From contig JACPQZ010000045.1 in the NCBI GenBank assembly GCA_016190205.1, positions 1 through 33,922 on the forward strand: DNA of 33,922 nucleotides, in the 5' to 3' direction. Of this stretch, positions 1-10,505 are shown piece by piece; within the stretch, counting starts at the first letter, position 1, and the number at the start of each line of letters is the position of its first letter. This DNA comes from Candidatus Omnitrophota bacterium (GTDB lineage Bacteria > Omnitrophota > JACPQZ01). The notes under the pieces were generated by a model. It saw nothing but the letters and a program-made list of their open reading frames with translations. It was not told the origin of the DNA and searched no databases. The translations under genes and the position numbers were made by a program.

Positions 1-1
1 C

Positions 2-637
2 TACGCCTTCGGCTCGCTCCTTGAAAAAACCGGCTCCTCGGACACCTCTTTCCGCTTCACGGGCCGGGACTGGGATGCCGAAAGCGGCCTCTACCACCTG
101 CGGGCCAGGGCGTATGACGCCCGGGTGGGGCGGTTTCTTCAGCAAGACCCCTGGCCGAGGACGCCGGGGGATCCCAGGCTCATGGCACTGCGGTACCTTT
201 CTGGGCTGGCTGATGCGAAACACCCATTGCCAGGCGCAGCACCGATTATGCTGTCAACCGATCTATTTGAAGACATCTTCACTGCCCAGTTCCAATTTTT
301 CCTCAACCCTTTGGCGTTGAATCACTATTCCTATGTTTATAATAGTCCTTTGCTCTTCAAAGATCCACTCGGGTTAGAGAGAAGCCGAGGACGCGGTTTT
401 GAAGACGCTGCCGAAATCTTCGCGCGATGGAGAGCGGCTGAGGCTATCTCATTAACGGGAATCGGTTTTGAAGCCGGCGCCATCGCTCTTCATAGAATTC
501 CTCACCCTGCGGCACAGCTACTCGCCTTTATCTTAGACCTAGCAGCTGTTGGAATGGAAGCGACAGCTGTTGACATAGCTCCTGGCATGGATTTGCCCAT
601 CGTTCCAGATGGCGATCCTGGTGACAGAAACCGGTAG
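2..637 (+). CDS. RHS/YD-repeat protein, C-terminal part (cassette 1), 5' end outside window
   Basis: The frame is open from base 2, so the N-terminal core lies off the left edge. It encodes the end of the RHS shell (YAFGSLLEKTG, then RDWDAESGLYHLRAR, then RFLQQDPWPRTP), a linker of about 50 residues, the closing motif YVYNSPLLFKDPLGLE, and a tip of about 85 residues rich in hydrophobic helix. RHS proteins build a hollow beta shell around a C-terminal toxin that starts just after the DPxG motif, so the tip from about base 375 is the candidate effector. I do not recognise its fold; its hydrophobicity would suit a membrane-acting toxin. Bases 1-175 are nearly identical to copies at 2250, 3815 and 5349. 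RGYDA reads RAYDA here through a two-base swap. Confidence 0.8.
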   Translation, partial: YAFGSLLEKTGSSDTSFRFTGRDWDAESGLYHLRARAYDARVGRFLQQDPWPRTPGDPRLMALRYLSGLADAKHPLPGAAPIMLSTDLFEDIFTAQFQFFLNPLALNHYSYVYNSPLLFKDPLGLERSRGRGFEDAAEIFARWRAAEAISLTGIGFEAGAIALHRIPHPAAQLLAFILDLAAVGMEATAVDIAPGMDLPIVPDGDPGDRNR

Positions 638-642
638 GGTTT

Positions 643-1023
643 ATGCAATATAAAACACCAAGTTATATTATGAAATATATGCTGGTGACCACTATTGTTG
701 GTGTCGTGGTCATTAGCCTTGGTTTTCGAATTTCTGTCGCAACCTCCGTTTACCTATTAATTTTTTGCCTTTCGATCAACAGTCTCCCACTGCTATGGTT
801 GTTTAAACACCATAAAGAAATAACTTCCACAAAAGATTTTTTTCGACAACTGCGCCAGACCTTCACGCCCGGACGTGTTGTTGCACTTATAACAGTTTTC
901 TTTTCTATCCCACTTGCGGGCGTTTTGTTGAGAAGCATTACTGCTCTCCCAGATAACATCCTGTCACCGATAGTGTTACTTTCGTTTGTTGCAGCATTAT
1001 ATTGCATTTTTCTCAGGAAATAG
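643..1023 (+). CDS. Four-TM hypothetical protein, candidate immunity protein for RHS cassette 1
   Basis: Starts 5 nt after the RHS stop, the usual place for an RHS immunity gene. The 126-aa product has about four hydrophobic segments (residues 12-32, 33-53, 77-97 and 104-123) with a basic loop between the second and third. It is clearly AT-richer than the RHS core, as expected for a horizontally exchanged tip/immunity pair. No family was recognised. An immunity role is inferred from position and from the hydrophobic nature of the adjoining tip. A related cassette at 5349-5699 appears to have lost this gene while keeping sequence resembling its stop-codon region. Confidence 0.55.
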   Translation: MQYKTPSYIMKYMLVTTIVGVVVISLGFRISVATSVYLLIFCLSINSLPLLWLFKHHKEITSTKDFFRQLRQTFTPGRVVALITVFFSIPLAGVLLRSITALPDNILSPIVLLSFVAALYCIFLRK

Positions 1024-1035
1024 CCGTCAGTGTAA

Positions 1036-1065
1036 GTATAAGCGGTATAAGCGGTATAAGCGGTA
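1036..1065. repeat. Short tandem repeat, 9-bp unit, three copies
   Basis: The unit GTATAAGCG is repeated exactly at 1036-1044, 1045-1053 and 1054-1062, followed by GTA. It sits between the cassette 1 partner gene and the left end of the transposase element, and its last copy runs into the CGGTACC end motif of that element. Confidence 0.8.
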
Positions 1066-1774
1066 CCTGTTCTAAACGTGCCAGGTTCACATCGTCTCAA
1101 GTGCTTCCCCCACCCAATCCTCATACGGGTCATGCAGTTTCAAAAACTCCTGATAGCGCTGTTGTCGTTCCAAGTGAGTGGAGCCTAACTCGGCATAGTA
1201 AAGATTCTCAGTTAAGACAGGATCCGGCCTTCCTAACCCATAGTAGCGAGCGCTGGACCAGGGGTAGTCCGTGGGCTGGGTGACGAGGTGAGCCTTAAGA
1301 GGATTGCGCTCGATATACCGGCCGCAATGGAGGTAGTAGCTTTCCGCCTCGATCCGGGGGCTTTTGTAACGCCCTTGAAAGAGATGGCCCATCACGTGGT
1401 ACTTTTTCTTGTACCATCTTACATATCCGAGCTGCACCGCATGCATGAACCGGACGAGGTCCGGCGCCTTCCGGATCTGCATCAAGAGGTGGTAGTGATT
1501 GCCCATGAGGCAGTAGTGAAAGATATCCGTCTTTAAGTGATCCCGGGCTTGAGTTAAGAGGGTATGGAATTGCTCAAAGTCCTCGGGGTCTTTGAAGATC
1601 TGCGTCCGGTTGTTGCCCCGGTTAAAGATATGGTAGACTCCTTCATCGGTTAATTCACGGCTCTTTCGTGGCATCGGGTATCCTCCTTTAAAGGGGGACA
1701 GTGACCCCCACCCATATAGATGCCGAAATGAGCTTCGCGATTGCATGAACCTGGCACTTTTGTAGACGGTACCG
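1061..1774. mobile_element. RAYT (Y1 transposase) element with imperfect terminal inverted repeat
   Basis: The transposase gene is bracketed by complementary ends. Left end: CGGTACC (1061-1067), 10 nt, then GTGCCAGGTTCA (1078-1089). Right end: TGAACCTGGCAC (1746-1757), 10 nt, then GGTACCG (1768-1774). The two conserved blocks match perfectly as inverted repeats at identical spacing, and the 10-nt middles match partly. No target duplication is seen, as is usual for HUH/Y1 elements. The left inverted repeat overlaps the stop codon of the transposase; the right one runs into the truncated RHS frame. Confidence 0.65.
1087..1674 (-). CDS. REP-associated tyrosine transposase (Y1_Tnp / TnpA-REP family)
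   Basis: The 195-aa product has the HUH metal site as HYH at residues 60-62 (context LMGNHYHLL) and a probable nucleophilic Tyr84 in GYVRWYKKKY, followed by the family motif GHLFQGRYKS and the ending YIERNPLKA..YPWSSARYY. These are single-strand DNA transposases of the IS200/RAYT group that act on palindromic REP-like ends. The start at 1674 is fixed by a strong Shine-Dalgarno sequence (TAAAGGAGGA on the minus strand, 1681-1690); the frame continues upstream to 1929, but that part overlaps RHS coding sequence and has no such site. The gene looks intact. Confidence 0.88.
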   Translation of the reverse strand: MPRKSRELTDEGVYHIFNRGNNRTQIFKDPEDFEQFHTLLTQARDHLKTDIFHYCLMGNHYHLLMQIRKAPDLVRFMHAVQLGYVRWYKKKYHVMGHLFQGRYKSPRIEAESYYLHCGRYIERNPLKAHLVTQPTDYPWSSARYYGLGRPDPVLTENLYYAELGSTHLERQQRYQEFLKLHDPYEDWVGEALETM

Positions 1775-2871
1775 TAACTTCTCCCAAACCTCAAGCCCTG
1801 CCCGTGGCCGATTCCCTTGCTCCCTTGGTGCAAGGTACCGACTATGACGAGGTGCTTGAGTGGAATCCGGGGACAGGCGAGTATCAACCTGCTGCAAACC
1901 TGGTGCCCGGCCAGGCCTACTGGCTCCATACCCTACGCCCCACGGACCTGGTCCTTACGCCTCCCGCCCAGCACGCGATTACGTACTCCTACAACGGGGA
2001 CGGGCTGCGAGTAGCCAAGACGGTGCAGGGCGTGACTACCCGGTACCTCCACGATGGCTTGGAGGTCCTGGGGGAGATCAATGGAGTGGGAACGCTTATC
2101 CAAAGCTACGTCCACGGCCCCCGGCTGGATGAAGTCCTGGCCTCCCGGGAGGCTTCAACCGGAAAGACCCTCAACCCCTTGATCGACCCCCTGGGCTCGG
2201 TGATCGCCCTGGTGGACGAAAGCCAAACCGTCCAGGCCACTTTCACCTACTACGCCTTCGGCTCGCTCCTTGAAAAAACCGGCTCCTCGGACACCTCTTT
2301 CCGCTTCACGGGCCGGGACTGGGATGCCGAAAGCGGCCTCTACCACCTGCGGGCCAGGGGCTATGACGCCCGGGTGGGGCGGTTTCTCCAGCAAGACCCC
2401 TGGCCGCGCACTCCCGCTGACCCCCGTTTGATCGCGTTACGTTACCTGGCCGGCCTGACAGCTGCCCGGCATCCGGTGCCGGGGGCAGCACGAGGCGCCT
2501 TACCAGCAAAGCACACAACCGCTCTTTCCATTGCCCAGACCGGTTTCCTCCTCAACCCCCTGGGCCTAAACGCATACCCCTATGTCACCAATAATCCTCT
2601 GAGATGGCTCGATCCGTTTGGCCTAGAGGGTAGTGCAAATACTCCGGGAGATAACGGGGACAAAGGTTATTATGCTAGTGAAGATGGAGGATTTGGAGAA
2701 GGTCACCCTGGGAGCGGAGGCGACTACGGTGGTGAGGGTGGAGGATTTGGGGGAGGGCCTGGAGGGCATGCCGGCGGAGGTGATTACGGTGGCGGGGGCG
2801 GAGGATTTGGAGAAGGTCACCCTGGGAGCGGAGGCGGCTACAGCGGTGGAGGTGGAGGATTTGGAGTATAA
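1741..2871 (+). CDS. RHS/YD-repeat protein fragment (cassette 2) with glycine-rich tip, 5' truncated
   Basis: The frame opens at 1732 inside the right end of the RAYT element. The only early start is TTG 1741 without a ribosome site, so this is probably a headless RHS gene rather than a complete one. Residues about 1-80 are a segment of unclear origin (EWNPGTGEYQP, PGQAYWLHTL). YD-repeat core follows (SYNGDGLRVAKTVQG to RGYDARVGRFLQQDP), then a linker of about 50 residues and YVTNNPLRWLDPFGLEG. The last 80 residues are a Gly-rich tail with repeated GGFGEGHPGSGG units, unlike a typical enzyme toxin. It may be a structural tip or may have expanded from a short repeat. The core from 2107 matches cassette 3 from 3672. 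Confidence 0.72.
   Translation: MHEPGTFVDGTVTSPKPQALPVADSLAPLVQGTDYDEVLEWNPGTGEYQPAANLVPGQAYWLHTLRPTDLVLTPPAQHAITYSYNGDGLRVAKTVQGVTTRYLHDGLEVLGEINGVGTLIQSYVHGPRLDEVLASREASTGKTLNPLIDPLGSVIALVDESQTVQATFTYYAFGSLLEKTGSSDTSFRFTGRDWDAESGLYHLRARGYDARVGRFLQQDPWPRTPADPRLIALRYLAGLTAARHPVPGAARGALPAKHTTALSIAQTGFLLNPLGLNAYPYVTNNPLRWLDPFGLEGSANTPGDNGDKGYYASEDGGFGEGHPGSGGDYGGEGGGFGGGPGGHAGGGDYGGGGGGFGEGHPGSGGGYSGGGGGFGV
2686..2852. repeat. Internal direct repeat encoding the glycine-rich RHS tail
   Basis: A stretch of about 50 bp beginning GGAGGATTTGGAGAAGGTCA occurs at 2686 and again at 2800, exactly 114 bp (38 codons) apart, with shorter related GGAGG/GGCGG units between. It encodes the GGFGEGHPGSGG repeats. 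The in-frame spacing suggests expansion by slippage or unequal exchange. Confidence 0.75.
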
Positions 2872-2883
2872 TACCGAATAGAT

Positions 2884-3633
2884 ATGTGGTGCCCACGCTG
2901 CCAAAAGCCAGTCATCTATTATGCTGAGCAATCTCAAGGTATGAAGGTGATCTATTGTCAGGAATGCCTTTACTCATTGTTTGCTGAACCCCTTGAGGCT
3001 GTTGAAGAATCCGCCCCTGACAAAAGTGGGTTAGAGTACATCTACTATAAAATACAAGGCGCTTCATTTAGCGAGTTAAAACAAGACATTTTCGATCGCC
3101 GGGGGCCTTTAACGTCCAATGGGCAGAGAGTCTCCTTCTACACGTGCTTCCATCTTCGGTGGAAATACGATTCCACGTATACATTGAAGCTTCAAGACAG
3201 CGATGACACAGTGGTTCTTGCTGTCGCATTCAAAAATATCGTTATTTCCATATCCCACAAGACGACCGCACCAGTTCTTGGCGATGCCGTAAAACTGCCT
3301 TCCCGAGATCTAGATTTGTGGCAGAGATATTTTGACAAGCTAAAACAACACGAGCTTGATCACGTTAGCATTTCCTCGGATTCGAAGACATTAGAGGTTC
3401 TGAAAACAGAGGTCGCCTCGATAAAGGAGGTTAAATTTGGATTTAACAATCTGCCCCCAAGGAGCAAGTCTCTGGCGGGAGATATTATCGCTTTAGCAGT
3501 TAACACTGTTGGTAACAAGTACACCTCACTGATCCAGAAGCGATATGAATTGTTTGATGAGCTGACGAAAAACGGTGAGGAAGATTACAATAAAGATGAG
3601 GTTATAAGGAAAGTGTTCGAAGCGACTATATAG
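2884..3633 (+). CDS. Zinc-ribbon protein with DUF922-like putative metalloprotease domain
   Basis: This 249-aa product starts 12 nt after the cassette 2 RHS stop, in the partner-gene slot. An N-terminal zinc ribbon has Cys pairs C3/C6 and C25/C28. The rest resembles DUF922, a predicted zinc-dependent protease family: an IYYKIQGASFSEL opening, a GP motif, the W-Y stretch LRWKYD, and a metal-binding-like HELDH at residues 156-160 following WQRYFDKLKQ. No signal peptide or TM segment is seen. Codon use is AT-richer than the RHS core. It could be a companion effector, a processing protease or an immunity protein; the sequence does not decide. DUF922 is assigned by pattern only. Confidence 0.6.
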   Translation: MWCPRCQKPVIYYAEQSQGMKVIYCQECLYSLFAEPLEAVEESAPDKSGLEYIYYKIQGASFSELKQDIFDRRGPLTSNGQRVSFYTCFHLRWKYDSTYTLKLQDSDDTVVLAVAFKNIVISISHKTTAPVLGDAVKLPSRDLDLWQRYFDKLKQHELDHVSISSDSKTLEVLKTEVASIKEVKFGFNNLPPRSKSLAGDIIALAVNTVGNKYTSLIQKRYELFDELTKNGEEDYNKDEVIRKVFEATI

Positions 3634-3634
3634 A

Positions 3635-3645
3635 GTGCCGGGCAC
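3635..3645. repeat. Short REP-like palindrome ahead of RHS cassette 3
   Basis: GTGCC-G-GGCAC is a perfect 5-bp-arm palindrome directly after the DUF922 gene and 27 nt before RHS homology resumes. It shares its GTGCC start with the ends of the RAYT element at 1061-1774 and could be a REP-type target or end remnant. Weak on its own. Confidence 0.35.
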
Positions 3646-3671
3646 CCAGGGGACAGGTCACTCTTCACACT

Positions 3672-4613
3672 TACGTCCACGGCCCCCGGCTGGATGAGGT
3701 CCTGGCCTCCCGGGAGGCTTCAACCGGGGAAACCCTCTACCCCTTGACCGACCCCCTGGGTTCGGTGATCGCCCTGGTGGACGAAAGCCAAACCGTCCAG
3801 GCCACTTTCACCTACTACGCCTTCGGCTCGCTCCTTGAAAAAACCGGCTCCGCCGACACCTCCTTCCGCTTCACGGGCCGGGACTGGGATCTCGAAAGCG
3901 GCCTCTATCACTTGCGGGCCAGGGGCTATGACGCCCGGGTGGGGAGGTTTCTCCAGCAGGACCCCTGGCCGAGGACGCCGGGGGATCCGAGGATGATCGG
4001 CTTACGTTACCTGGCCGGCCTGGCCCAAGCCCGGCACCCGGTGCCGGGGACATCGCACTTATTATTACCGGCTAGCTTGCCTTTGGTGAATGTCCACATG
4101 CAAAGAGCTTTCTTACAACGCCCCCTGGGGCTCAATTCATATCCTTTGGTCTACAATAACCCACTTAATGCTGTCGATCCTTTAGGAACAAATGGAATCG
4201 TGGTAGTAGGGGGAGGGAGTGCAGAGGCGGGGGTGGGGCCAGGGTATAGCGCGGGCGCTTACCAAAGTGGCGGTATAGGTTTTATTGGCCGTAATGTTAG
4301 GACGGCTGGGCTTTTCGGGTCTTCGGGAAGCTTTTTGAGCAATGCCCTAAGTGGCTCAGCAGGTGCGTTTGGGGGTGTGTCAGTGGGCCTTGGCTACACC
4401 ACAGCTAACTCTGTATCAGATCTAGGGGGAGCTGGCACAACGTACACACTCAACGCCTCTGCAGGGGTCTACGGCCTGACTATTCAGGTGACGGTTGGTA
4501 ATAACGGCGTAACGACGGTGACTGTATCTCCGGTCGGTATGGGTTTTGGAGTCAGCTACAGCGAAGTGCGCATCGAAACAAGCACGGTATCTTTATTTGA
4601 AAGGAAAAAATAA
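3672..4613 (+). pseudogene. Orphan RHS C-terminal cassette 3 (core end plus Gly/Ser-rich tip), no start
   Basis: Homology to cassette 2 starts abruptly at TACGTCCACGGC (3672; 2107 in cassette 2) and stays in register, with YAFGSLLEKTG 143 bp further on in both. The frame is open throughout, but only a TTG at 3744 could start it and nothing supports that, so this is a displaced RHS C-terminus. Such orphan ends are known to act as donors that swap tips by recombination with a full RHS gene. After YNNPLNAVDPLG comes a tip of about 140 residues rich in Gly, Ser, Ala and Thr with alternating hydrophobics (GGVSVGLGYTTANS, TIQVTVGNNGVTTVTVSPV), which looks like beta-rich, perhaps membrane-interacting, protein. 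No family was recognised. Confidence 0.72.
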
Positions 4614-4616
4614 AAC

Positions 4617-5309
4617 GTGGTTGAAAATTTTCCTCGATCTACCTTCATCTTTATTGTGTCGGTCGTCGGTTGTATCGTCTGGTTTTACCAATTATTGCGC
4701 GGACAGGGAACTTTTCGCTATTATGACCGCTTTAGGACCTTGTACAAGATCGAACAAGGGCAAGTAAGGATTTGCATATTACTCAAGTTTTGCATACAAA
4801 GAATCAATATATCTGACATCCAGGAAATCAAGTATTTTTCAGCGGTCCCGAACAAATTCGCAACTTGGCTTGATGCGGACCACTTGGAAAATGGGTTGTG
4901 GAGGCCCGTTGTCTACATCAAGGCGCTGGTAGGCAAGAGACGAAAACCCCGAATCTTTCTCATGACCCCTGTCGCCTTGGACATTGATGATTTCATTGAG
5001 ACCGTGAGAGAGCAAAAGCAAACCGGCAACTTCACCAATCCGGGTTGTTACAAAGCCACTTTGCCGTATCGGGAGGATATGCAACGAATTGCAGACAGAA
5101 ACGGCATATTTAAAACGATAGCTTTTCTTGTGCCGTATGGTGCAACGAGTTTAGAATTACTTTTGGCCATGTTTGCGCTAGCGGCTAGGGGAGAGATAGT
5201 CTGGTTATTGATTCCTTTCTTTTTTCTCATATCCTTTGGATCCAACTTCATAGAACTGTCTTTACAATGGCACTATCTTTTGGGAAAAAGACGTCTTGGC
5301 CATTCTTAG
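4617..5309 (+). CDS. Membrane protein of unknown family, candidate partner of RHS tip 3
   Basis: GTG start 3 nt after the cassette 3 stop, with AGGA about 11 nt upstream, so the two are coupled. The 230-aa product has one N-terminal TM segment (about residues 8-26), a soluble middle of about 130 residues with a beta-rich look reminiscent of small PH-like membrane domains, and two C-terminal TM segments (about 165-215). Position next to a beta-rich RHS tip suggests an immunity protein anchored in the inner membrane. Like the other partner genes it is AT-richer than the core. Confidence 0.5.
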   Translation: MVENFPRSTFIFIVSVVGCIVWFYQLLRGQGTFRYYDRFRTLYKIEQGQVRICILLKFCIQRINISDIQEIKYFSAVPNKFATWLDADHLENGLWRPVVYIKALVGKRRKPRIFLMTPVALDIDDFIETVREQKQTGNFTNPGCYKATLPYREDMQRIADRNGIFKTIAFLVPYGATSLELLLAMFALAARGEIVWLLIPFFFLISFGSNFIELSLQWHYLLGKRRLGHS

Positions 5310-5348
5310 CATACAGTAAAAACGAGGGCGGTTCTACGTTCTCCGACG

Positions 5349-5699
5349 CCGCCTTCGGCTCGCTCCTTGAAAAAACCGGCTCCGCCGACACCTCCTTCCG
5401 CTTCACGAGCCGGGACTGGGATGCCGAAAGCGGCCTCTACCACCTGCGGGCCAGGGGCTATGACGCCCGGGTGGGGCGGTTTCTCCAGCAAGACCCCTGG
5501 CCGAGGACGCAGAATTGGAGATGCCGTCGAAATCTATGCGCGATGGAGAGCGGCTGAGGCTATCTCATTAACGGGAATCGGTTTTGAGGCTGGTGCAATC
5601 GCGCTACATAGAATTCCTCACCCCACGGCGCAGCTACTCGCCTTTTTCCTAGACGTAGCAGCTGTTGGATCGGGAAATAGCCGCAGTGTTAATATTTAA
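5349..5699 (+). pseudogene. Degraded RHS cassette 4, frameshifted relative of cassette 1
   Basis: Core homology runs from about 5349 to 5510 and the tip resumes at once at 5511 with sequence homologous to the cassette 1 tip (ARWRAAEAISLTGIGFEAGA). The join falls at GCCGAGGACGC, an 11-mer that cassette 1 has twice, at 154-164 and 384-394. Loss of the 230 bp between them explains the structure and the frameshift (230 is not a multiple of 3). After GCTGTTGGA (5661-5669) the sequence jumps to GGAAATAGCCG (5673), which in cassette 1 is the stop region of the partner gene (1016), so that gene is gone too. No functional product is expected. Confidence 0.8.
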
Positions 5700-5763
5700 A
5701 CTGCCAAGTGCATACTGATAAGCACTGGGCATCCGGTTACCGCGGAGACAGGGCTTGTCTTAG

Positions 5764-5940
5764 TACTGCTTGGGGGCAGGGCTTGAATTGTTTGCGGCCG
5801 ATCTCGTCACCGGAGGCAAAGTGATCGGCCTGGCTCCTTACGCCAATGCCCGCACGCGAGAACCTATCATTCTACGAAGCGGCAAGACTCTCCCGCGGAT
5901 TCCATCACCTTACACCGACCCGCGTGGATGGAGGATATGA
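5764..5940 (+). pseudogene. Open tail fragment of unknown protein, possibly another RHS tip remnant
   Basis: A 58-codon stretch is open from just after an in-frame TAG (5761) to TGA at 5938-5940. It reads FAADLVTGGKVIGLAPYANA, then TREPIILRSG, and ends TDPRGWRI. It has no convincing start and overlaps the next gene start. Its place after the cassette array and directly before a membrane-protein gene is where an RHS tip tail would lie, but no homology was recognised. Confidence 0.35.
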
Positions 5941-6779
5941 AGCATAAAGAACCTTTATTGGCTGTCTTGCTGTCCGTGATTTTGCCAGGATTAGGGCAAA
6001 TCTATGCAAGTAAGATGGGCCGTGGTGTAGTTCTTATGAGTATCAGCACAATCATTCCCACTGCGCTCATCGCGTATATCCTTCATCCCGACACTAGGTT
6101 TCACGTCTTTCAATTTCTTCTTATCCCGATTGCTATTGGGTTTGCTTTCATGGTTCCCATCGATGCTTATCGATCAGCCAAATCTTGGAATATGGGTCAC
6201 AATCTTGAGCGGAAGATAACAACAGCAAAGAAGACAATTATGATCCTCAGCATATTATTCGTCCTTTTCATTTTCAATCCGATGGAAATCGTAGCGCTCG
6301 CCGTTACATACCACATAAGAGCCAATATTGCTCAGCCGTACAAAATGGCATCCGATAGCATGTGTCCTGCTTTGATGAAGGGAGACAGGTTTTTCGTTAA
6401 TAAGGCCATTTACCGCCGGTTGGAACCGCAACGTGGGGATATTGTCGTCTTCGATTATCCCGTCGACCCGAAAAGAACCTTTATCGAAAGACTTGTTGGC
6501 TTGCCTGGGGAAACTGTTGAGCTAAGAGACGGTCGTGTGGTGGTCAATGGCGTTGTCAAAACAGAGGGCAGCCTAAGCCAGTTTTATTACTACAATCAGG
6601 CGCCCTACGCTGATGAAGGACAGTTTACAACTGTTCCAGCCGATAGTTATTTCGTATTGGGGGACAACAGTGGCAACAGCATGGACAGCAGGTCCTGGGG
6701 TTTTGTTCCGAAAAAGAACCTAACGGGAAAGGCGTACAAGATTTATTGGCCGCTGGATCGGTCGGGGCCATTAGAATAA
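5928..6779 (+). CDS. lepB: Signal peptidase I homologue with multi-TM N-terminus and Glu in place of catalytic Lys
   Basis: The 283-aa product has four hydrophobic segments in residues 10-125, opening with SVILPGLGQIYASKMGRG as in small membrane domains often fused to signal peptidases. An S26 peptidase domain follows. The nucleophile motif is present (SDSMCPAL, Ser144), as are VGLPGETVELRDGRVVVNG and GDNSGNSMDSRSWG. Signal peptidase I normally uses a Ser/Lys dyad with the Lys just before the R of KRxxGLPG; here the residue is Glu187 (FIERLVGLPG, codon GAA 6486-6488). It may be inactive or use another base. Start: ATG 5928, or ATG 5937, which has GGAGG at 5930-5934 only 2 nt upstream. It sits in a partner slot of the cassette region, so it is probably not the cell's main LepB. 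Confidence 0.78.
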   Translation: MEDMKHKEPLLAVLLSVILPGLGQIYASKMGRGVVLMSISTIIPTALIAYILHPDTRFHVFQFLLIPIAIGFAFMVPIDAYRSAKSWNMGHNLERKITTAKKTIMILSILFVLFIFNPMEIVALAVTYHIRANIAQPYKMASDSMCPALMKGDRFFVNKAIYRRLEPQRGDIVVFDYPVDPKRTFIERLVGLPGETVELRDGRVVVNGVVKTEGSLSQFYYYNQAPYADEGQFTTVPADSYFVLGDNSGNSMDSRSWGFVPKKNLTGKAYKIYWPLDRSGPLE

Positions 6780-7190: not shown

Positions 7191-7583
7191 GTGCCACGTT
7201 CCGTACGTCTACAACCGCTTTCCTTACTGATTGCTCACGTCCTGCTCAAGGGGCCAAGCAGCCTCAAGATTATTCGCATGGTGGTGGATACAGGTGCAAC
7301 CACTACGATTATCCCTCCGCAAATAGCGGTCGCCATTGGGTGCGATCCTGCGAAGAGAAGCGGGCGCACCGCAATCATTACAGCCAGCGGATTAGAGTAT
7401 CTTCCCGTTGTCACCATCCCACTGGTCGAGTGCCTTGGGTATCGTGTCCGCTCGCTTAAAGCGGCTTGCCACGATCTGCCGCCACAAAGTATGGTAGACG
7501 GTCTCCTTGGACTTGACTTTTTGAGTCATGTGCCGTCTTTTCGCCGATTTCACAATGAAATTCACCGCCTCACTCAAGAGTAA
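7191..7583 (+). CDS. Retropepsin-like aspartyl protease
   Basis: The 130-aa product has the single-lobe aspartyl protease signature: catalytic DTGA at residues 33-36 (context MVVDTGATTTIIPP) and the second conserved hydrophobic-Gly motif VDGLLGLDFL near residues 101-110. Single-lobe retropepsins work as homodimers, each giving one Asp. GTG start 4 nt downstream of the preceding gene, so the two form one unit. No signal peptide is apparent, so it is likely cytoplasmic. Substrate unknown. Confidence 0.82.
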   Translation: MPRSVRLQPLSLLIAHVLLKGPSSLKIIRMVVDTGATTTIIPPQIAVAIGCDPAKRSGRTAIITASGLEYLPVVTIPLVECLGYRVRSLKAACHDLPPQSMVDGLLGLDFLSHVPSFRRFHNEIHRLTQE

Positions 7584-7626
7584 CAGTTACATTCCCTTAA
7601 CCTAGTCTTCTGGAGCCGCCCGCTCC

Positions 7627-7758
7627 GACCCCCAAGACTTAAACCGCTACGCTTACGCCCGCAATAACCGCTCAACCTGCACCGACCCCACCGGGTATGG
7701 GTGGTTTAAGAAGCTCTTCAATATGGGGGTGTTCAATCGGGACGTGCGATTAAGCTGA
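7627..7758 (+). pseudogene. RHS C-terminal stub A (second RHS family), internally deleted
   Basis: It encodes DPQDLNRYAYARNN, then TDPTGYGWFKKLFNMGV, and ends at TGA 7756. This is the shell-closing end of an RHS protein from a different family than the array at 1-5700 (that one reads RFLQQDPWPRT). Compared with stub B, the piece from the ARYYDPSLGRF block to DPQDL is missing, and the local PLTY reads STCT. There is no start and no upstream core. It ends 2 nt from the stop codon of the convergent DUF2283 gene. Confidence 0.8.
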
Positions 7759-8349: not shown

Positions 8350-8508
8350 CTCGCCCGCTACTACGACCCCTCCCTCGGCCGCTTCCTCACCGCAGACCCC
8401 ACCGTCCAGCACCCTGAAGACCCCCAAGACTTAAACCGCTACGCCTTTGCGAGAAATAACCCCTTAACCTACACCGACCCCACTGGCTACGGGTGGATCG
8501 TGATATAA
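8350..8508 (+). pseudogene. RHS C-terminal stub B (second RHS family)
   Basis: Open from just after an in-frame TAA (8347) to TAA 8506-8508. It encodes ARYYDPSLGRFLTADPTVQH, then DPQDLNRYAFARNNPLTYTD and PTGYGW, the closing end of an RHS shell cut off exactly where the tip would begin. There is no start codon. Its last codons overlap a perfect TATAAT (8504-8509) that may serve the following DUF2442 gene. Confidence 0.82.
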
Positions 8509-8557
8509 TAATCGGGTCCGAAGACCATCGGACTTGGTTTAAGGAAATGCCCAGATA

Positions 8558-9117: not shown

Positions 9118-9231
9118 ATCACCGCCGACCCCACCGTCCAGCACCCTTCCGATCCCCAGGACTTAAACCGCTACGCCTACGCCCGCAATAACCCCTTAAC
9201 CTACACCGACCCCACCTGGTATGGTGGCTGA
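9118..9231 (+). pseudogene. RHS C-terminal stub C (second RHS family), frameshifted at its end
   Basis: It encodes ITADPTVQHPSDPQDLNRYA, then YARNNPLTYTDPT, and stops at TGA 9229. Beyond that, the DNA still resembles stub A: inserting one base after GGTATGG restores a reading of GYGWLKKLFKE, matching GYGWFKKLFN in stub A. The stub is therefore a frameshifted remnant whose original tip began with the same residues. It starts about 32 nt after the DUF5678 gene. Confidence 0.78.
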
Positions 9232-9266
9232 AGAAACTATTCAAGGAGAGGTTACAGGGCTTGTCC

Positions 9267-9296
9267 TTGACAAATGGGCTTAAATTATGTCATAAT
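9267..9296 (+). promoter_or_regulatory. Promoter of the AbiE-type operon
   Basis: TTGACA (9267-9272), 18 bp, CATAAT (9291-9296). Transcription would start near 9303. The -10 lies within the palindrome at 9287-9305, so the promoter is placed for repression by a dimeric DNA-binding protein. Confidence 0.55.
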
Positions 9297-9305
9297 ATAT
9301 GACAT
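9287..9305. promoter_or_regulatory. 19-bp perfect operator palindrome over the -10 box
   Basis: ATGTCATA-ATA-TATGACAT has 8-bp perfect arms and a 3-bp spacer. It covers the -10 box and the presumed transcription start of the HTH antitoxin/nucleotidyltransferase operon, as expected for antitoxin autoregulation. Confidence 0.6.
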
Positions 9306-9813
9306 GGAAATGAAATGGAATCTGCTTGGGGTGGGGCCCTGTCTCCAAACGCTCGTATACGAAAGCGGCGGTGAGCAAAAAAAGGTGTCCGTCCGTCCCA
9401 TCTATACGGTGGTGGATGTGTGCCACCGCCTGCGTAAGTCGCGGCGTCAGGTCTACCGCTACATGCGCAGCGGACGATTGAAGCCCTGTGCGCAGATTTT
9501 GGGCCAGTGGCTTTTTTCAAAGAGGGAACTTGAGCATTTTGAGCAGGGCCGTATGCCCGTGTGGTTAAAATCCCTCTTCTGGGATGCCCGCATTTCAGAT
9601 CTCTCCGTGGGCCATCACAGCGATTTTATCCTGGCGAGGGCTTTTGAATACGGGGATCGCAAGGCCCTGCGCTGGGTATTCCGCACTTATCCTATCAGCA
9701 CCATTACCCGTTTCCTCGATGGCCGGGGAAGGGACGTGCTTTCCACGCGGACGTGGCATTTCTGGGCTCTCCAAACAGACCTGCACAGGCGGCGCAGCAA
9801 GGTGAGAAAATGA
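9304..9813 (+). CDS. HTH plus DUF6922-like antitoxin of an AbiE-type pair
   Basis: A DNA-binding segment reads VCHRLRKSRRQVYRYMRSGR, then GQWLFSKRELEHF, an excisionase/MerR-like helix-turn-helix. It is followed by LFWDARI, HSDFILARAFEYGDRKALRW and VFRTYP, the layout of DUF6922. Such proteins precede AbiEii-type nucleotidyltransferases and act as their antitoxin and repressor. The frame is open from ATG 9274, but that codon lies upstream of the likely transcription start. ATG 9304 or 9310, or a later GTG, is more credible; the first 30-40 residues fit no domain. The stop overlaps the toxin start. Confidence 0.72.
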   Translation: MEMKWNLLGVGPCLQTLVYESGGEQKKVSVRPIYTVVDVCHRLRKSRRQVYRYMRSGRLKPCAQILGQWLFSKRELEHFEQGRMPVWLKSLFWDARISDLSVGHHSDFILARAFEYGDRKALRWVFRTYPISTITRFLDGRGRDVLSTRTWHFWALQTDLHRRRSKVRK

Positions 9814-10505
9814 AACGTGGCATCCACGCAGTACCTGAGTCTCTACAGGTTCTGATCGAGCAGATGGCTCACGCAGGTTTGATGCGGGACTTTTACTTAG
9901 CCGGAGGTACAGGCCTGGCCCTCTTGTTAAACCACCGCCGGTCTATTGATATTGATTTATTCTCTGGGACGAACCGTCTTGACTTTGACGGCCGCCGGGA
10001 TCTTTTCTCGCGTTTAAGGCGTCTATCCGGGTGGGCGCTGATTGAAGCGAAAGACGGGACCGTGCACGGCCGTTTGAAAAAGGTGCGGACGAGCTTCTTT
10101 TGGTATCCCGAGCCGCTCTTGAAACCTACAGTTAAAAGGGGAGGCGTCCGGATCGCCTCCGTGACCGATATCGGTCTCATGAAATTAGCCGCTATTATTG
10201 GGCGCGGATCCCGGAAGGATTTCGTCGATCTTTATGCGATCTGCCGAGAGTTACCCTTATCCCGCCTGCTTAAGCTGGGCGGGAAGAAGTTTAAACACTC
10301 CGGGGATTTTCCCTTACAGGCCTTGAAAGCCCTTGTTTACTTTGAAGACGCCGAGAAAGATCCACCCGCCATTACGCCACAACCTCTCTCCTGGACAAAC
10401 GTCAAGGCATTCTTCATCCGTGAGGTGCGTACCTTGACCCGGCAATCCATTTCGGGTATCAAGCCCTTCAAGAGATCTCAAAAAACCTTCACGCGCTATC
10501 CGTGA
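9810..10505 (+). CDS. AbiEii/AbiGii-type nucleotidyltransferase toxin
   Basis: The 231-aa product has the DUF1814-type nucleotidyltransferase signature: FYLAGGTGLALLLNHRRSID (GGT at residues 32-34) followed by the metal-binding Asp pair in SIDIDLFS (Asp47/Asp49), then VTDIGLMKLAAIIGRGSRKD and FVDLYAI. AbiEii toxins transfer nucleotides to tRNA or other targets and give phage-induced growth arrest. ATG 9810 overlaps the antitoxin TGA (ATGA), so the pair is coupled with the antitoxin first, the type IV AbiE order. It looks intact. Confidence 0.85.
   Translation: MKRGIHAVPESLQVLIEQMAHAGLMRDFYLAGGTGLALLLNHRRSIDIDLFSGTNRLDFDGRRDLFSRLRRLSGWALIEAKDGTVHGRLKKVRTSFFWYPEPLLKPTVKRGGVRIASVTDIGLMKLAAIIGRGSRKDFVDLYAICRELPLSRLLKLGGKKFKHSGDFPLQALKALVYFEDAEKDPPAITPQPLSWTNVKAFFIREVRTLTRQSISGIKPFKRSQKTFTRYP

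Follow-up and report, generated by a model that had tools for sequence, protein, structure and literature searches.

Why a bacterial contig should open with four copies of one Rhs core end, each leading into a tip, is the question raised by the stretch of DNA analyzed here: 33,922 nucleotides (nt) from Candidatus Omnitrophota bacterium (assembly GCA_016190205.1, contig JACPQZ010000045.1), hereafter the window. The contig is 127,966 nt long, with the window at its left end, and belongs to a genome of 76 contigs and 1.65 Mb that is ~93% complete. Arrays of detached Rhs tips are a well-known means by which bacteria store and swap toxin ends. Here, the contig starts with a row of detached ends from one Rhs toxin-like gene, three of them intact with their partner genes and one a broken duplicate. 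We consider it very likely that we are looking at the downstream portion of an rhs locus, made up of dissociated (orphan) cassettes, in each of which a 3' fragment of one common Rhs core is joined to a distinct tip and a partner. A first-pass annotation had proposed such an array, and the proposal is supported both by the anatomy of the locus and by arrays that lie behind full-length rhs genes elsewhere in the phylum.

The core end that unites the cassettes is found four times in the window (Table 1), as the first-pass annotation had noticed. The copies were confirmed by BLAST (E 1e-157 to 1e-71, far beyond chance) and by repeat families, and all four exceed the cut-off of the TIGR03696 Rhs-associated core model. 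Over the 153 nt common to all copies, pairwise identity is 98.0% for copies 1 and 2, 97.4% for 2 and 4, 95.4% for both 1 and 4 and 3 and 4, 94.1% for 2 and 3, and 92.2% for 1 and 3. Where the homology begins was said to be fixed, and in the window it is not: relative to the GRF motif, the core starts at -270 nt in copy 3 and at about -138 nt in copy 4, copy 2 reaches further upstream than either, and copy 1 is truncated where the contig ends. A site-specific cassette mechanism was considered because start points recur in the arrays of some relatives; it was rejected here, as the starts differ and no shared flanking motif was seen. In copies 3 and 4, no ATG precedes the core, in agreement with the earlier description, and to these we add copy 2, the frame of which opens within the right-hand end of a transposase element and also lacks a credible start.

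Where the core ends and the tip begins is seen more clearly in protein than in DNA. The DPxG motif is the usual border between an Rhs core and its tip. Strong DNA identity among the copies fades past the QQDPWPRT motif, while the protein alignment of copies 1 to 3 runs on via '..LRYLAGLA.A.HPVPGA..' to 'YVYNNPL...DPLGL'. The true border therefore lies at the DPxG motif, past the point where DNA identity ceases to be strong, and because protein homology extends to DPLGL, the tips have the lengths given in Table 1. After the border, the three tips are unrelated to one another. Tips 2 and 3 are glycine-rich, and tip 2 is repetitive as well. In 384 same-phylum genomes, tip 1 had no relative and tip 3 had weak relatives alone. 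A pair of tips from another genome of the phylum is similar in composition to tip 3 (the alignment, which is of low-complexity sequence, gives 28 and 37% identity), and both of them also precede small membrane proteins, as tip 3 does. The pairing of tip 3 with a membrane-protein partner would suit a membrane-acting toxin; its structure model, at a predicted local distance difference test score (pLDDT) of 38, is too poor to use.

The partner genes follow closely. Each partner open reading frame (ORF) starts 3 to 12 nt past the stop of its tip, and the three partners have a guanine-plus-cytosine (GC) content of 39 to 44%, versus 65% for the core. The first-pass annotation was thus right to describe an AT-rich gene directly after the stop in three cases. 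The partner gene has been lost in copy 4. We infer that the partners are most likely immunity genes.

How the fourth copy came to lack a tip of its own can be read from cassette 1. Four tips had been counted at first; there are three, as the sequence that follows the core in copy 4 is what is left of tip 1 (88% identity between window 5500-5669 and tip 1 at 384-553). The 11-mer GCCGAGGACGC occurs twice in cassette 1, at 154 in the core end and at 384 in the tip start, and once in copy 4. The 230 nt between the repeats are missing from copy 4, and the tip remnant is therefore out of frame. Copy 4 then jumps to TCGGGAAATAGCCG-CAGTGT, which matches the last part of partner 1 with its stop (score 31, against no more than 23 in 2000 shuffles), a second deletion having taken most of partner 1. 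To judge from its sequence, copy 4 arose by duplication of cassette 1 and then decayed; cassette 1 thus stands intact at the head of the array and dead at its tail. Tip 1 and the relic differ by 12 synonymous changes in ~40 sites and by 7 nonsynonymous changes in ~113, and we conclude that both evolved under constraint. The dead duplicate is a record of cassette decay, here via deletion between short direct repeats.

Table 1. Features of the Rhs cassette array at the left end of the window (aa, amino acids)
Feature	Position	Strand	Remarks
Rhs core end, copy 1	1..157	+	Cut by contig edge; 98% identity with copy 2, complete over the first 110 nt
Copy 1 open frame: core end and tip 1	2..637	+	Tip from ~371, 88 aa; Rhs_assc_core E 4.4e-18
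Two GCCGAGGACGC copies in cassette 1	154-164 and 384-394 (span 154..394)	+	Flank the 230 nt that copy 4 lacks
Partner 1	643..1023	+	126 aa, several membrane stretches; 5 nt past tip 1 stop; 39% GC
Transposase element	1061..1774	-	Gene 1087-1674 (Y1/REP-type) between imperfect 29-nt inverted repeats; Y1_Tnp E 3.4e-13
Copy 2 open frame: core fragment and tip 2	1732..2871	+	Repeat part 2107-2406; tip from 2626, 81 aa
Partner 2	2884..3633	+	249 aa, two CxxC pairs and DUF922 with HELDH; 12 nt past tip 2 stop; DUF922 E 7.9e-12
Copy 3 open frame: core fragment and tip 3	3600..4613	+	Repeat part 3672-3971; tip from 4185, 142 aa; no ATG before core
Partner 3	4617..5309	+	230 aa, about three membrane stretches; 3 nt past tip 3 stop; 44% GC
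Copy 4	5336..5700	+	Core end at 5336-5503, then tip 1 remnant (frameshifted) to 5669; partner 1 stop trace to ~5695

Whether the layout is peculiar to one genome can be judged from its relatives. An Rhs core was found in 106 of 368 sampled same-phylum genomes, several of which have long orphan arrays. At ten same-phylum loci inspected closely, long rhs frames (1092 to 1756 aa) are followed by orphan frames with core DNA 75 to 100% identical to that of the main gene, and the identity mostly stops near DPxG. Moreover, an ORF begins -40 to +58 nt from the stop in 28 of 29 same-phylum rhs frames, and the follower gene is AT-rich. As long rhs frames, orphans, and follower ORFs recur at these loci, we conclude that the layout of the window is usual for such loci in the phylum. 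Among the richest arrays is L112 (genome G118, contig C2), where a 1622-aa frame is followed by at least five orphan frames, in a genome with 13 Rhs core matches. Several arrays have shared orphan core starts, relative to the GRF motif, of about -279 (three), -459 (three), -139 (two), and -217 (two); in L112, L113, L115, and L122, the orphan cores of one array often start within a few nt of each other, behind unrelated upstream flanks. Shared starts could be junctions carried along in whole-cassette recombination between cores. A scan of named genomes gave distant Rhs cores, 23 to 38% identical and no closer, and the exact core pattern was absent from the viral contigs searched.

The window is a further case of a known kind of array, with all of the anatomical features present save a visible main gene. 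Strings of dissociated rhs tips with variable core fragments were described by Jackson et al. in 2009 (PMC2935791), who suggested homologous recombination within the core as the route of displacement. Like those arrays, the window has core fragments of variable length, unrelated tips, and AT-rich follower genes in a one-strand string, such that the core is alike and the tips differ. Unlike those arrays, it shows no main gene before the contig edge, comes from a lineage outside the Enterobacteriaceae, loses strong DNA identity 135 to 220 nt ahead of the DPxG border, and holds one cassette twice, the second copy being dead. Poole et al. in 2011 (PMC3150448) reported that orphan modules encode functional toxin/immunity pairs, some of them broken by transposable elements, and Koskiniemi et al. 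in 2014 (PMC3967940) presented evidence that a main gene and an orphan had fused in Salmonella through 522 base pairs at 95% identity, versus ~300 to 380 nt at 91 to 95% identity for the window copies. The rhs-CT/rhsI and cdiA-CT/cdiI orphan modules of those studies (PMC3150448, PMC3967940) resemble the window in their startless tip fragments, each with a small partner gene, and in the transposable elements that lie between them. For those modules, toxicity, immunity, and main/orphan fusion were demonstrated; for the window they would be predictions, and its tips are of no known family. Zhang et al. in 2012 (PMC3482391) generalized cassette exchange and listed HExxH domains among the toxins. 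The window resembles their polymorphic toxin cassettes, stand-alone units in which a toxin is coupled to its immunity gene and the two can be exchanged in a single recombination event, but HExxH is here found in a partner (the DUF922 domain of partner 2). Our literature search found no report of such arrays in Omnitrophota. The window lays out in full, in a poorly known lineage, a tip-displacement array as in Enterobacteriaceae, and relatives carry the same kind of array.

How such an array might be built and used follows a simple scheme. A new tip would come in when the conserved core end undergoes homologous recombination, and the previous tip and its partner would be pushed downstream, where they would lack a start and decay, with displacement as the presumed cause. 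The purpose of the tip cassettes would be competition between bacteria. Whether the silent tips are still reloaded onto a main gene here, as the "working tip library" of the first-pass annotation would have it, is something we entertain tentatively and put at rather less than an even chance. That the cassettes are instead unused fossils of past displacement, in a locus decaying by deletions and transposon insertion, we regard as close to an even proposition. Decay is apparent in copies 2 to 4, which are without credible starts, in the two deletions and frameshift of copy 4, in the transposase element that sits at the cassette 1/copy 2 junction at the 5' end of copy 2, and in a second Rhs core, of which three nearly tipless remnants lie at 7.6 to 9.2 kb. 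The frames of copies 1 to 3 and all three partners are intact, however, and ~300 nt of homologous core at 95% identity is still available for recombination. Moreover, the core differences between copies 2 and 3 are mostly synonymous (10 changes in 77 synonymous sites versus 6 in 223 other sites), although they may predate the orphan state. The cores of cassettes 1 and 4 differ by 4 synonymous changes in ~39 sites, below the divergence of their tips (Fisher p 0.048; all sites p 0.017), and core and tip may have had different histories, which exchange or homogenization of cores would be expected to produce.

Several points weigh against an array of orphan toxin cassettes. The test that separates core from tip divergence is a weak one, and its all-site value could owe something to constraint on the core. 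The tips match no known toxin domain and no family in Pfam, NCBIfam, PHROG, or PADLOC, and tip 2 is low-complexity sequence that may be no toxin. Finally, a full-length rhs gene was not found in the assembly, a result that the first-pass annotation had said would refute it, and neither YD repeats beyond the four copies nor further copies of the same core were present in the assembly. The first letter of the contig, however, is also the first of 110 nt over which copies 1 and 2 match perfectly, and other exact matches between copies are at most 95 nt. Because the contig begins in the longest perfect repeat of the array, the absence of the full-length gene is uninformative. We read the contig edge as a repeat-induced assembly break, beyond which an upstream main gene may have gone unassembled, and copy 1, truncated by the edge, is probably the last part of the full-length gene or else the first of the orphans. 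A contig that ends in a repeat might also suggest that the repeats themselves were created or misjoined by the assembler, the other result that had been named as refuting the array. We consider an artefact extremely improbable, as the copies differ by 2 to 8% and their tips, partners, and start points are all different; moreover, the same kind of layout is found in same-phylum genomes, two of which have 10 or fewer contigs. An array of dissociated tip/partner cassettes remains our reading of the region.

What partner 2 contributes to its cassette is a separate question. With a zinc ribbon as well as DUF922, it is the unusual element of the array and the single component that could surprise a specialist. 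The first-pass annotation took one partner for a putative zinc protease, a prediction that draws on a domain match and a motif: partner 2 scores 45.9 bits against the DUF922 profile (cut-off 27; profile positions 2-101 of 153), and HELDH at residue 156 aligns with HEDGH and HERGH of two same-phylum DUF922 members. The structure model (pLDDT 44) is unusable for testing a zincin fold. Searches for relatives of partner 2 found none among solved structures with phmmer, none in the 384 same-phylum genomes, and one weak partial match among plasmids. We conclude that the zinc-protease label is reasonable as a prediction. To go further and suppose that partner 2 is a cytosolic zinc-ribbon/DUF922 metalloprotease that cuts the incoming glycine-rich tip, and hence an Rhs-cassette immunity protein that acts as an enzyme, by proteolysis, would be to favor something very unlikely.

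Partner 2 might instead be a separate effector or a passenger rather than an immunity gene, in a cassette that has no working toxin now, which we consider unlikely but worth keeping in mind. HExxH metallopeptidases are among the listed toxin domains of polymorphic toxins (PMC3482391), and tip 2 has no recognizable toxin domain. In addition, two strong same-phylum DUF922 matches look exported, as they start with hydrophobic, export-signal-like stretches, and neither has rhs neighbors in the stretches examined. Partner 2, by contrast, has no membrane stretch and no export signal, and with its position and AT-richness it looks like an ordinary cytosolic partner gene. The cassette is worth a bench test.

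Other features of the locus touch the array less directly. The gene of the transposase element scores 65 bits against a model for REP-associated tyrosine transposases, under the cut-off of 80, and the element is present in a single copy in the genome. No RNA element or tRNA was found as an integration site. An intact signal peptidase I gene (window 5928-6779; Peptidase_S26, E 4.8e-44) adjoins the dead cassette and may be unrelated to the array, and a small ORF at 7191-7580 encodes a retropepsin-like aspartyl protease (gag-asp_proteas, E 7.2e-14). The second, different Rhs core end (..TADPTVQHPEDPQDLNRYAYARNNPLTYTDPTGYGW) is represented by remnants at 7595-7721, 8350-8510, and 9119-9244, which end soon after DPTG and are interleaved with small DUF2283, DUF2442, and DUF5678 genes, so as to form a second, almost tipless Rhs relic array. 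Just downstream of these relics, at 9274-10505, an HTH_17/DUF6922 gene overlaps an AbiEii-type nucleotidyltransferase gene, a possible toxin-antitoxin pair.

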